NCBI GenBank assembly: GCA_004102785.1
Contig: SCEJ01000003.1
Span: forward strand, 1 to 64,000
DNA length: 64,000 nucleotides
Direction: 5' to 3'
From: Muribaculaceae bacterium Isolate-013 (NCI)
GTDB taxonomy: Bacteria > Bacteroidota > Bacteroidia > Bacteroidales > Muribaculaceae
Made by a program: the position numbers and the translations under genes. Positions 21,415 to 25,702 of the stretch are shown piece after piece. The stretch's first letter is position 1. Each line of letters opens with the position of its first letter. Below the pieces are notes generated by a model. It saw only the letters and a list, made by a program, of their open reading frames with translations. It searched no databases and was not told the origin of the DNA.

Positions 21415-22866
21415 TCAATTCTGTCGGTCGGTTTTCAGATGCGGCTGCTCATGGTGGATTTCCACCACATTCACCTGCGGATACCTGGCGCGGAGATGTT
21501 CGGCCATGGCATGTGCGGAATATACCGAGCGATGCCGCCCGCCCGTGCAGCCGAAGCCAACACTCAGCGACGAAAAGCCTCTTTTCAGATATTTTTCGAC
21601 AGCGGCATCGACAAGGCTGTATGCGCTGGCAAGAAACGGAAAAATCTCCCCATCCTTTTCAAGGAATTCAATTACTGGACGGTCCATGCCGGTCAGCGGC
21701 TTATACTGCTCATAACGCCCGGGATTGTGCACTGCACGACAGTCGAATACGAAGCCGCCGCCATTGCCGGAATAGTCAGCCGGATACCCCTTACGATATG
21801 AGAAACTCTGCACCGTAACGGTCAGTTTCCCCTCTGGAAAAGTATGGCATCCGCCGGGTATCTGCAATGACTCCGCAATTTTGGCCAGTTGCGGGAACTC
21901 AGAGGCCAATTGTGGACCTTCTTCAGAAAAAAGCTTTTTCAGATTCGCTATGCCCAGGGGAAGCGATTCGATGAAATGAGGCTTCCGCTCAATGAGCCCG
22001 CGGAACCCATAAGCACCAAGCACCTGCAATTGCCTAAAAAGCACTAAGTAGGGTAGGGAGGTCATAAAGCCGGACTCTGAGAAATCGTTGCATAACTCAC
22101 GTGCGGCACGGCAGTAACATTCAATTGCCGCCAGTTTTGTCTCCATTGAAAAACCGGCCTTTGCCTGCCACAGAAACGAGGCAACATCATATGCGGCCGG
22201 GCCTTTCCGGCCTCCTTGAAAATCGATTCCGTAGAGATTGCCGCTTGCTGAATCGACTATAATGTTGCGGCTTTGGAAATCACGATACATAAATGTATCC
22301 CAACTATTGGAATCAATAAGAATTAAGCCGCGCAGACGGTCAAAATCTTTCTGTAACGCCGCCTCGTCGAATCCCTGGCCGATAACCTTCAGAAAGGAAT
22401 ATTTAAAGTAATTCAGGTCCCAGTTCACCGTATTGGCATCAAGAGATTTCTCCGGATAACATTCCGAGAAATCAAGGTCGCGGCTTCCGATATAATGGAA
22501 ACCGGCCAGCAGCCGCATTGCCTTTTCAAGTAGAAGATAATCATCCTGACCACCAAGACACTCCAATAACGATTTTCCGGAGATATAACTTTGCAGATAG
22601 GCTGACTGACCGGCATCTTCGCAGATGATTTCAGGCACATCAAGATCTTTGGCGCGGAAGTGCCGGGCCAGGTATATGAAAGCTCTGTTTTCGCGGGCAT
22701 CGTCACCACATGTGCCTACAATATCGGGAATGCTGCCGTTGCCGGCCAGCAGATAATATCTGCGGCTGGAGCCGCCGGCGGCAAGAGGTGTGATGCCGGC
22801 GGGCGGCAGGCCATATCTCTCGTTATACAGCAGCGAGAGTCTCGCCTTATCTGATTCAATATTCAT
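21415..22866 (-). CDS. AmgK-like sugar kinase fused to a RapZ C-terminal domain
   Basis: 483 residues. The N-terminal part (about 1-335) is an aminoglycoside phosphotransferase-type kinase: YRDFQSRN at 194-201 is the catalytic loop and IDFQ at 214-217 the metal-binding Asp. The best relatives in function are AmgK-type MurNAc/GlcNAc anomeric kinases. The C-terminal part (about 347-473) matches the RapZ C-terminal domain, with SFSYRKG (354-360), FDCRAVHNPG (374-383) and GCTGGRHRSV (439-448). In E. coli that domain senses glucosamine-6-phosphate and binds small RNA. The RapZ P-loop domain is absent, replaced by the kinase. It lies 15 bases after a beta-propeller gene and one base before the murU-like gene. 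Confidence 0.85.
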   Translation of the reverse strand: MNIESDKARLSLLYNERYGLPPAGITPLAAGGSSRRYYLLAGNGSIPDIVGTCGDDARENRAFIYLARHFRAKDLDVPEIICEDAGQSAYLQSYISGKSLLECLGGQDDYLLLEKAMRLLAGFHYIGSRDLDFSECYPEKSLDANTVNWDLNYFKYSFLKVIGQGFDEAALQKDFDRLRGLILIDSNSWDTFMYRDFQSRNIIVDSASGNLYGIDFQGGRKGPAAYDVASFLWQAKAGFSMETKLAAIECYCRAARELCNDFSESGFMTSLPYLVLFRQLQVLGAYGFRGLIERKPHFIESLPLGIANLKKLFSEEGPQLASEFPQLAKIAESLQIPGGCHTFPEGKLTVTVQSFSYRKGYPADYSGNGGGFVFDCRAVHNPGRYEQYKPLTGMDRPVIEFLEKDGEIFPFLASAYSLVDAAVEKYLKRGFSSLSVGFGCTGGRHRSVYSAHAMAEHLRARYPQVNVVEIHHEQPHLKTDRQN

Positions 22867-22881
22867 TTTTAAAGATAATCT

Positions 22882-24456
22882 TCAAAAGTTGTCGTTATCC
22901 TTTTTCCGTGGATAGAAAAGCAACAGGGCGCCTCCGGCGACCAATCCGGCACCGGCGGCCACAATAGCTATAATAGCATCATCGCTCAGAGTCCCATCAG
23001 TCTTTGCCGCTCCTTGTGCCGCGGCCCGGATTGAGTCTGTACCTTCAATCAAGGCTAATCCTGAAACGGTATCCGGCTCAACGTCAAGCTCTGTCTCCGG
23101 CACATACGGCATATCCGGGCGGCGTACCGTGAAGATGTTCACAGCGTTGCCTCCATATCCTTTCCGTCCCTGCGAGGTGGCGATCAGTTTGCGTCCGTCG
23201 GCCGAGAGGGCAAGCCCTACTGGATAGGAATCGCATCTTATGCTGTCGGCCACTTTCATAGTTGAGGCATCCACCACATAAACAGCATTGCCTGAATTGC
23301 ACGCCACAAATATATATTTGCCGTCGGGTGAGATTTCAAGGGTTCTGGCGCCTCCCCCTACCTTGCAGGTTTCAATGCGTCCGTTAAATCTAATGTTTTT
23401 TGTGCTCTCGGTTTTGGCTTTCTCCACACCAGCCACAAGACTGTCAAGCGGAAGCTTGATTACGGAACCGGCCACATTGCATGAGCCATAAAGATAGCCG
23501 TCCTTGACTGCGAGATGGCGTACGCTGTACACACTCTGAACCATGCCGACATGTTTCCCCTCCGCCACGTCGATTACAGCCAGCGGGCCACCCATGCCTG
23601 ACACCAGCAGATAGCGGGAGTCGGGGGTAAACACGGTGCCGCGCAGCAGAAAACCGGATTTGGAGTCGCGGTCAACTGACGAGTCCAGCGGAAAGTTCAA
23701 CTGCAGTTTATTTCCTACTGTGACCGGTGGCAGATGATGCCACTCCTGCGGATTATCGGATGATATATCGATGAAACCCACCGTGTTGTCGCCCCAATGC
23801 GTCACGGCAATAAGCTTGCCGTCGGGCGATGTGGCCACCATTTTCGGCAGCGGTCCGGTCTCAAACATTCTGAATATTGTGTGCGTGTCAGTGTCGATGA
23901 CAGCAATCGCCGAAGGATCCTGGGCGTTGATGTCGAAAGTGCGGCGGTAATAAGGCACCCACAGATAGCGTCCGTTGTGGCTCCAGGTGCTCTCCACCGG
24001 TTTCCCTTTGAAAGCCCGTGTCTCCCCGTCCTTATAATGGGTGAACGGATAGTAACCCGACGGCTTTGCCCACAACATTCCGTTGCCGGAGGGGAATGTG
24101 TGCTCGATTACATGTTTTTTCTCCAGGGTGCGGGCATCGTAGGCCACGGTCTTGCATCCTTCCAGCGAATTGATATAGAACAATGCCCCGTCGGGAGAGA
24201 ATGAGGCTGATTTCGGAGAAAAGATATCAGTGTCGTAAGTTGATTTCTGTGCCGCCGAATATTGTTGCAGCTTGCCGATATTAATCAGTTTAAGGCTCCC
24301 TTCAACCCCGGCCGAACTGTCACCGATCTGGCTATGTACCACCGGAGGCACTTTGGGTGTGTCTTTGTTCTGTGTTCCTGGATTATCCAATGCAGATACC
24401 CCGGAGTAGATAAAGGTAATCAGCGCAAGAAATATGGCTGCCGTTTTACAATACAT
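22882..24456 (-). CDS. Membrane-anchored YncE-like beta-propeller protein
   Basis: 524 residues from the ATG at 24456 (MYCKTAAIFLALITF). I chose this start because the longer frame would run into prfA and across the promoter. The signal peptide is about 1-24. The body consists of YVTN/YncE-type propeller blades, e.g. ISPDGKYIFVACNSGNAVYVVD and LSADGRKLIATSQG. Near the C-terminus a helix (IIAIVAAGAGLVAGGALLLF) and a basic tail PRKK would fix it in the inner membrane, propeller outside. Substrate is unknown. It is the first gene of an operon with the RapZ-kinase fusion and the MurU-like enzyme, which suggests cell-wall sugar metabolism. Confidence 0.85.
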   Translation of the reverse strand: MYCKTAAIFLALITFIYSGVSALDNPGTQNKDTPKVPPVVHSQIGDSSAGVEGSLKLINIGKLQQYSAAQKSTYDTDIFSPKSASFSPDGALFYINSLEGCKTVAYDARTLEKKHVIEHTFPSGNGMLWAKPSGYYPFTHYKDGETRAFKGKPVESTWSHNGRYLWVPYYRRTFDINAQDPSAIAVIDTDTHTIFRMFETGPLPKMVATSPDGKLIAVTHWGDNTVGFIDISSDNPQEWHHLPPVTVGNKLQLNFPLDSSVDRDSKSGFLLRGTVFTPDSRYLLVSGMGGPLAVIDVAEGKHVGMVQSVYSVRHLAVKDGYLYGSCNVAGSVIKLPLDSLVAGVEKAKTESTKNIRFNGRIETCKVGGGARTLEISPDGKYIFVACNSGNAVYVVDASTMKVADSIRCDSYPVGLALSADGRKLIATSQGRKGYGGNAVNIFTVRRPDMPYVPETELDVEPDTVSGLALIEGTDSIRAAAQGAAKTDGTLSDDAIIAIVAAGAGLVAGGALLLFYPRKKDNDNF

Positions 24457-24480
24457 ATTATTGATGATTGGTTCGTTGTG

Positions 24481-24512
24481 CAAATCTACTGCTTTTATAT
24501 GGAAGCGGCAAA
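24481..24512 (-). promoter_or_regulatory. Promoter of the propeller-kinase-murU operon
   Basis: The minus strand has TTTG (24509-24512), a 20-base spacer and TAGATTTG (24481-24488), a full -33/-7 match. The predicted transcript start is about 20 bases before the ATG at 24456, which supports that start. Confidence 0.75.
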
Positions 24513-24592
24513 TGTTTGCGTTTTTTTTCGTAACTTCGCGGAAAATTCCACTACCGACAAGTAGACCGGTGTAATAATAGATTCTAAATTCA

Positions 24593-25702
24593 ATGGAAGA
24601 AAATTCGCTTCTGCGCCGTCTTGACGGCATCGAAAGCCGGTTTGAGGAGGTGAGCACACTTATCTCCGATCCCTCCGTGATTTCTGACATGAAACGCTAT
24701 GTGAAACTCAACAAGGAGTATCACGACCTTGAGCGACTGACCGCCGCCACACGGCGATACCGCTCTCTGCTTGCCAATATCAGCGAGGCGCGCGAAGCTC
24801 TCGACACAGAAACCGACAGCGAAATGCGGCAGATGGCTAAAGAGCAACTTGACGAAGCGTCAGGACAGTTGCCCGAAGTGGAGCAGGAAATCAAACTGCT
24901 GCTGATTCCGGCTGATCCGGAGGATTCAAAGAATGCGATTGTGGAAATTCGCGGCGGAACAGGAGGCGATGAAGCCGCTCTTTTTGCCGGAGACCTGTTC
25001 AAGATGTATCAGCGCTACTGCGAGAAGCAGGGATGGAACGTGGCGGTCACATCTTTCTCAGAAGGCGCCGCCGGCGGATTCAAGGAAATTGTATTCTCCG
25101 TAAGCGGTCAGAATGTCTACGGCATCCTTAAATATGAAAGCGGCGTGCACCGAGTGCAGCGTGTACCATCTACTGAGACACAAGGGCGTGTGCACACCTC
25201 GGCTGCCACGGTAGCCGTTCTGCCCGAAGCCGAAGCTTTCGATGTGGAAATCAACGAGGGCGAAATCAAGTGGGAAACTTTCCGCTCGGGAGGTGCCGGC
25301 GGCCAGAATGTAAACAAGGTAGAGTCGGGCGTGCGTCTGCGTTACATGTGGCGCAATCCGGTGACAGGCCAGACCGACGAGATTCTCATCGAATGCACCG
25401 AAACCCGCGACCAGCCCAAAAACAAAGAGCGGGCGTTGAGCCGTCTGCGCACATATATATATGACCGGGAGCATCAGAAATATGTCGACGATATCGCCTC
25501 CCGACGCAAGACGCTGGTGTCGACAGGCGACCGCTCTGCAAAAATACGCACCTACAATTTTCCACAGGGGCGTATCACAGACCACCGCATAAACTTCACA
25601 GCCTATAATCTCCAGGCGTTTCTTGACGGAGACATACAGCAACTCCTTGATGCTCTTTCCGTGGCAGAGAACGCCGAGAAGCTGAAGGAATCGGAGCTCT
25701 GA
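24593..25702 (+). CDS. prfA: Peptide chain release factor 1
   Basis: 369 residues. It recognises UAA and UAG in the ribosomal A site and triggers peptide release. The GGQ loop is in SGGAGGQNVNKVESGVRL. The tripeptide codon reader is PST in RVPSTETQGRVHTSAATV, the RF1 type (PxT) and not the RF2 SPF. It starts a short unit with pyrF, which follows after 49 bases. The ATG is supported by the usual RF1 N-terminus and by divergence from the propeller operon. Confidence 0.97.
   Translation: MEENSLLRRLDGIESRFEEVSTLISDPSVISDMKRYVKLNKEYHDLERLTAATRRYRSLLANISEAREALDTETDSEMRQMAKEQLDEASGQLPEVEQEIKLLLIPADPEDSKNAIVEIRGGTGGDEAALFAGDLFKMYQRYCEKQGWNVAVTSFSEGAAGGFKEIVFSVSGQNVYGILKYESGVHRVQRVPSTETQGRVHTSAATVAVLPEAEAFDVEINEGEIKWETFRSGGAGGQNVNKVESGVRLRYMWRNPVTGQTDEILIECTETRDQPKNKERALSRLRTYIYDREHQKYVDDIASRRKTLVSTGDRSAKIRTYNFPQGRITDHRINFTAYNLQAFLDGDIQQLLDALSVAENAEKLKESEL

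Follow-up and report, generated by a model that had tools for sequence, protein, structure and literature searches.

What does the C-terminal domain of the RNase adapter RapZ do when it is attached to a sugar kinase? The question is raised by a gene of a Muribaculaceae bacterium in the 64,000-nucleotide stretch of DNA analysed here (the window), which the original prediction had read as an amino-sugar kinase joined to the sensor domain of RapZ and adjoined by a MurU-type gene. We examined the architecture of the encoded protein, the distribution of its parts among genomes, the pathway to which it may belong and the residues kept or lost in its RapZ domain.

Architecture of the fusion protein

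A single open reading frame does join the two parts, with exactly the predicted coordinates and Pfam matches to the APH kinase family and to PF22740 (RapZ_C; E 3e-31, 108.6 bits, cut-off 27). The motifs FDCRAVHNPG and GCTGGRHRSV, expected to be intact, were both found in the protein, and the adjoining gene, whose two top PDB matches are MurU enzymes, lies 1 bp past the kinase stop (Table 1). Upstream, a beta-propeller gene ends 15 bp before the kinase start and is possibly on the same transcript; it was absent from the conserved neighbour clusters of related loci.

Table 1. Features of the locus, in window coordinates
Feature	Position	Strand	Basis
Kinase–RapZ_C fusion protein, 483 aa	21415..22866	-	ORF, ATG start; Pfam; AlphaFold2
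APH/AmgK-like kinase domain, residues 25-244	22135..22794	-	PF01636, E 2.6e-15; Foldseek
Kinase catalytic loop R195-D196-x4-N201 (RDFQSRN)	22264..22284	-	invariant residues
Kinase D215 of the IDFQGG motif	22222-22224	-	invariant residue
Inter-domain linker, residues 334-347	21826..21867	-	no secondary structure in AlphaFold2 model
RapZ C-terminal domain, residues 348-467	21466..21825	-	PF22740; Foldseek vs 5o5s
N381-P-G-R384, counterpart of E. coli N188-P-H190-W191	21715..21726	-	alignment; His to Gly
C440-TGGRH-R446-S447, strand-Cx5R-helix anion-binding loop (E. coli C247...R253)	21526..21549	-	invariance; model
MurU-like sugar-1-phosphate nucleotidyltransferase, 256 aa	20643..21413	-	PDB matches; NCBIfam MurU
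Beta-propeller protein, upstream of the kinase	22882..24690	-	ORF and beta-propeller matches

AlphaFold2 modelled the full chain with a mean pLDDT of 90.4 and a pTM of 0.70, and the isolated RapZ_C with a pLDDT of 91.2. The kinase part reaches to about residue 333 and is followed by the linker, in which residues 341-344 have a pLDDT below 50. The top Foldseek match of the kinase model was 3csv (TM-score by target length 0.79, E 1.6e-12), while the RapZ_C model matched the C-terminal domain of E. coli RapZ (5o5s) with a TM-score of about 0.79-0.80 by query and 0.91 by target length (rmsd 1.7). With RapZ (E. coli and YvcJ-type relatives) the domain shares 35% identity over the modelled region, the fold and the anion-pocket loop, which in the model is flanked by a strand (433-440) and a helix (446-461). 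Unlike RapZ, however, the window protein has an APH kinase and not the N-terminal P-loop (Walker A) domain, and it scores 94 bits against the NCBIfam RapZ model, which has a cut-off of 244.

AmgK is a MurNAc/GlcNAc anomeric 1-kinase, and MurU is a MurNAc-1-phosphate uridylyltransferase. The catalytic Asp and Asn and the metal-binding Asp of AmgK are kept in the fusion (D196, N201 and D215); together with R195 and R200 they are invariant in 12 diverse and 28 fused members. NCBIfam AmgK was the sole kinase family matched by all 12 kinase members tested, and among nucleotidyltransferases MurU scored best for the neighbouring gene in both NCBIfam and PDB (8hhd, 2.9e-17; 4y7t, 5.8e-17). Since the scores lie far under the curated cut-offs (31 and 26 bits against equivalog cut-offs of 550 and 500 for the two AmgK models; 92 bits against 250 for MurU), we regard both proteins as distant relatives of AmgK and MurU. 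The predicted AmgK type therefore holds as a distant relationship, not by the curated criterion.

AmgK of Pseudomonas, Caulobacter and Legionella is likewise an APH-fold kinase beside a MurU-type uridylyltransferase, with the catalytic Asp/Asn/Asp kept, whereas the fusion kinase belongs to a separate clade on a long branch. In the kinase tree, the kinases of the RapZ_C-linked subtype formed a single clade (SH-aLRT 100), apart from proteobacterial AmgK and from the kinases of f18, a clade of the sampled Bacteroidota. RapZ_C is present on the window kinase and missing from the kinase–MurU pairs examined in Legionella, Sinorhizobium and f18. The AmgK-like kinase of Sinorhizobium is fused to TsaE and followed by a MurU-like gene (L127 1775-3289); fusion partners are taken by AmgK recurrently (TsaE in Sinorhizobium, RapZ_C here).

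Distribution and linkage of kinase, RapZ_C and MurU

Relatives turned up in Bacteroidales, Acidobacteria and KSB1 when bacterial and archaeal genomes were scanned. Only three elements were conserved throughout their neighbourhoods: the kinase, RapZ_C and the MurU-like gene. Together this type of kinase, the RapZ_C subtype found with it and the MurU-like enzyme make up a module that occurs in Bacteroidota, Acidobacteria and KSB1. A wider conserved operon was considered and rejected, as the remaining neighbours were common only to small groups of relatives. Fusion is the usual state: 64 independent fused copies from Bacteroidota and Acidobacteria rule out a chance join or an assembly artefact.

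In a sample of 296 Bacteroidota genomes (all counts uncorrected for phylogeny), RapZ_C was found in 36, and no genome contained a RapZ frame of canonical size. All 36 also carried this kinase subtype and a MurU-like gene, and RapZ_C was present in 36 of the 37 genomes with the kinase subtype. The exception, G009, probably lost the domain, because it is nested within the kinase tree. Of 74 loci, some of them incomplete, 56 included the MurU-like gene. In six genomes with a fusion it was located elsewhere in the genome; RapZ_C therefore keeps to the kinase more faithfully than MurU does. In each of the 71 loci compared, conservation was also higher in RapZ_C than in the kinase (median 54% vs 38%). 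On the domain tree, a single change parts the kinase-linked form from canonical RapZ.

In KSB1 (L068), family f5 (L070-L075) and genome G031 (L014), RapZ_C is encoded by a gene of its own next to that of the kinase, and it is unlinked to the kinase in G271 and G180. In G031 the two parts are split by a single stop plus 3 bp (L014 472-1896) and are fused in its congener G124, so this split is a recent fission or a sequence error. The unlinked RapZ_C gene of G271 lies 32 bp upstream of a same-strand gene for an MFS transporter, possibly a sugar importer (L076 5661-7381). Free-standing RapZ_C-like proteins were further encountered on Streptomyces linear plasmids (L101 3995-4381) and in phage records with Corynebacterium, Listeria, Staphylococcus and Microcystis hosts. 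Short faecal records named 'Bacteriophage sp.' contain a RapZ_C 60-65% identical to that of the window, most likely bacterial DNA inside phage records.

The kinase and its probable part in MurNAc salvage

MurQ is the MurNAc-6-phosphate (MurNAc-6-P) etherase, NamZ an exo-N-acetylmuramidase, and AnmK makes MurNAc-6-P. Among the 296 Bacteroidota genomes, 86 lack MurQ. AmgK-like kinases, called with the A1 profile at E <= 1e-20, were present in 84 of these 86 and in 16 of the 210 MurQ-bearing genomes (Fisher 1.7e-54, a value that ignores relatedness); the two MurQ-less genomes without the kinase, G056 and G288, both belong to f18. Outside f18, the kinase occurred in 21/21 MurQ-less vs 16/210 MurQ-bearing genomes, likewise uncorrected for phylogeny. 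Twenty of these 21, which come from families f1, f4, f5, f16, f17, f34, f35, f41 and f47, have RapZ_C. The pattern recurs within family f17, where six kinase genomes are without MurQ and the ten listed kinase-less genomes have it. This complementarity to MurQ outside f18 places the kinase in MurNAc metabolism. As a general rule, exclusion of MurQ fails in Acidobacteria, where the module, AnmK and MurQ were found together in all 15 genomes checked.

In the window's own genome neither MurQ nor AnmK was found. Another contig (C141, L131 7086-12487) carries SpoIID/DUF4922, AmpG-like, NamZ and MurK-like genes in a row, the last matching Tannerella forsythia MurK (8ow9) at 2e-41. With this cluster present, free MurNAc should enter the cytoplasm, where no MurQ would break down its phosphate. 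The kinase–MurU pair of f18, devoid of RapZ_C, adjoins NamZ and a sodium:solute symporter (L118 2103-6710, L119 4462-9080), which we read as a compact operon for MurNAc import and activation; its MurU carries a left-handed-helix tail.

An AmgK/MurU route in Bacteroidetes has been proposed from work on T. forsythia (PMC5790795, PMC7670621), and these salvage papers make no mention of RapZ_C on AmgK. The MurNAc salvage of T. forsythia (MurT/AmpG/MurK/MurQ plus the proposed AmgK/MurU) and the window's genome have the NamZ/AmpG-like/MurK-like row and the proposed AmgK/MurU route in common; MurQ is missing from the latter.

In this reading the kinase half would phosphorylate free MurNAc, and perhaps also GlcNAc, at C1 as the first salvage enzyme, and the product of the MurU-like gene would use the resulting sugar-1-phosphate to make UDP-MurNAc, from which new cell wall is built. 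Whatever RapZ_C does, the kinase very probably belongs to MurNAc salvage, as judged from its catalytic residues, its linkage to MurU, the complementarity to MurQ and the co-occurrence of RapZ_C with the kinase. APH-fold kinases and nucleotidyltransferases are broad families, choline kinases are among the structural matches of the kinase in Foldseek, and the subthreshold AmgK and MurU scores would also suit a pair acting on another sugar or alcohol, such as choline, heptose or a surface-glycan sugar. That the MurNAc assignment is wrong in this way appears quite improbable, given that AmgK was the only kinase family matched by 12/12 members, that MurU was the top-scoring nucleotidyltransferase, that the kinase is complementary to MurQ outside f18 and that the related f18 pair adjoins NamZ and a symporter.

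RapZ_C: RNA binding, sensing or catalysis

To compare the domain with its canonical counterpart, 74 kinase-linked RapZ_C sequences were set against nine canonical RapZ from Proteobacteria, Bacillota and Actinomycetota (E. coli numbering). Position 190 is Gly in 73 of the 74 and His or Tyr in all nine canonical sequences. Position 191 is Arg/Lys instead of W/Y, position 238 is aromatic in 74/74 instead of R/K, and position 178 is Gly instead of D. An insert (SGNGGGF) precedes the FD.R motif, and K270 and the C-terminal basic tail are not conserved. The change from K to Q at position 251 carries no information, as Q also occurs in several canonical RapZ. Invariant in 74/74 are D182, R184, N188, C247, T248, G249, G250, H252, R253, S254 and H276.

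The replaced residues bear on the suggestion that the domain still binds RNA and regulates an RNA of Bacteroidota as RapZ does GlmZ. In E. coli RapZ, H190A alone abolishes activity on GlmZ, and R238 lies in the RNA-facing basic patch (PMC9841335). GlmZ (RF00083) had no match in the genome, with a positive E. coli control, and neither a canonical RapZ nor a second RapZ_C was found elsewhere in it. An Rfam scan of the window gave a group II intron match at 771-870 (RF00029, 45.8 bits) and no RNA near the kinase–RapZ_C gene. The fold is the same as in RapZ, and most members have K/R/H at position 170 and K/R at position 196, which speaks for RNA binding; with the RNA-related residues replaced and with no GlmZ and no second RapZ_C, RNA regulation is nevertheless very unlikely. 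Of the original interpretation, a putative MurNAc 1-kinase of peptidoglycan salvage with an attached RapZ_C is retained and RNA binding is not. RapZ_C is probably an enzyme or a sensor for the same sugars rather than an RNA-binding part.

The C-terminal domain of E. coli RapZ is controlled by glucosamine-6-phosphate (GlcN-6-P), which it binds with a KD of 186 nM (PMC7073468). This is the main precedent for the sensor proposed in the original prediction, in which RapZ_C would bind an amino-sugar phosphate (GlcN-6-P, MurNAc-6-P or a product) without turnover and switch the MurNAc kinase allosterically, coupling salvage to de novo supply. The invariance of the anion-pocket residues T248, G249, H252 and R253 fits such a role, and metabolite regulation commonly takes the form of a fusion to an enzyme. 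However, GlcN-6-P should not be assumed as the ligand, because H190/W191 are changed to G/R in the pocket, and with Gly at position 190 the ligand specificity probably differs. The linker also looks flexible in the AlphaFold2 model, the domain is free-standing and even unlinked in several genomes, it is more conserved than the kinase it would regulate, and mere binding would not obviously need an invariant Cys. We consider the sensor a serious if somewhat doubtful candidate, one of two live readings beside a phosphatase.

The phosphatase reading starts from the loop itself. The C-x5-R(S) loop (C440...R446-S447) is invariant in 74/74 sequences, and RapZ_C may be an amino-sugar-phosphate domain built around this loop of the Cys-phosphatase type. 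Its conservation above that of the kinase is what is expected of an enzyme, and its occurrence as a free-standing and unlinked gene likewise speaks for this reading. In E. coli RapZ, C247A and C247S are inactive, a catalytic SH was suggested, and crystals treated with GlcN-6-P contained a 'chemically transformed product' (PMC9841335); the loop has been likened to the phosphate loops of Cys-phosphatases, and hydrolysis of GlcN-6-P was proposed as possible (PMC7199280). In the kinase-linked form, the domain would take the 6-phosphate off MurNAc-6-P, or off another amino-sugar 6-phosphate related to it, and hand the free sugar to the kinase, and a pocket with Gly and Arg could admit the larger, acidic MurNAc-6-P. 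We tentatively place this reading first, just ahead of the sensor; our best guess from the sequences is that RapZ_C serves the attached kinase by binding an amino-sugar phosphate and perhaps also dephosphorylating it.

In Pseudomonas, the HAD phosphatase MupP acts before AmgK and MurU. The three steps of that route (MurNAc-6-P to MurNAc to MurNAc-1-P to UDP-MurNAc) would be repeated here with RapZ_C in the first, as a functional analogy only, since the candidate is a Cys-loop domain and not of the HAD fold. With Cys-dependent protein-tyrosine and dual-specificity phosphatases RapZ_C shares the strand-C-x-x-G-x-x-R-S-helix loop (PMC7199280), whereas the residue before the Cys is Gly and not His, and the folds are not alike: Foldseek of the RapZ_C model finds RapZ only, DUSP10 being the best such phosphatase at rank 48 (E 1.5). 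The RapZ literature cited here contains no report of phosphatase activity, and the E. coli protein that bears this loop is a sensor and binds RNA.

The genomic supply of MurNAc-6-P bears on both sides. All 24 AnmK-positive, kinase-bearing Bacteroidota genomes have RapZ_C, and AnmK is present in 15/15 of the module-bearing Acidobacteria; no AnmK was found in the kinase genomes without RapZ_C (f18 and G009) and no MurK in the 14 of them checked (13 of f18, and G009), where the f18 contrast represents one clade. Against a phosphatase, neither AnmK nor MurK was detected in 10 of the 36 module genomes (f17, f35, f46), so these ten have no known source of MurNAc-6-P. A strict partnership of RapZ_C with AnmK was rejected; it fails in 12/36 genomes, and adding MurK rescues only 2.

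The E. coli domain dimerises on its own (PMC5737377, PMC7199280), and RapZ_C remains with the kinase even where MurU is elsewhere in the genome. Both observations would suit a module for dimerisation or scaffolding that keeps the kinase together or docks MurU, its pocket a relic. In a relic, however, C, T, G, G, H, R and S would not be expected to stay invariant in 74/74 sequences across three phyla, and survival as an unlinked gene is hard to reconcile with dimerisation alone, which makes this role improbable.

Both the kinase–MurU route and the RapZ domain have been described before; what is new is their combination. The sequence of the fusion is public while its architecture seems undiscussed: within the open-access literature, our scope here, AmgK and RapZ were not found in the same paper. 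In NCBI annotation, the fusions of Bacteroides finegoldii (WP_237923178.1) and Parabacteroides distasonis (WP_005858754.1) are called 'RNase adapter RapZ', and loci L100 (3990-5420) and L128 (3986-5416) hold fusions annotated in this way. The label is misleading because the first two thirds of the protein are a sugar kinase. It conceals an enzyme with which common gut Bacteroidales likely salvage MurNAc, and it can mislead work on both cell-wall recycling and RNA regulation in these bacteria.

The finding also bears on the chemistry of the RapZ pocket, with its essential Cys, its 'transformed' crystal ligand and a hydrolysis that is so far a proposal. In this natural set of RapZ_C domains, tied to a pathway enzyme and stripped of RNA-related residues, the chemistry of the metabolite is set apart from RNA binding, and the kinase-linked domain is amenable to simple assays. 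We infer the kinase substrate, the RapZ_C ligand and any catalysis by RapZ_C from sequence, and it is quite possible, though less likely than not, that the fusion is a one-chain, two-step MurNAc-salvage enzyme in which RapZ_C is a new Cys-loop 6-phosphatase and the kinase re-phosphorylates the sugar at C1. If so, RapZ_C would stand in for MupP, a HAD phosphatase, throughout Bacteroidota and Acidobacteria, and the RNA-binding regulator RapZ would descend from, or share a domain with, a metabolic phosphatase.
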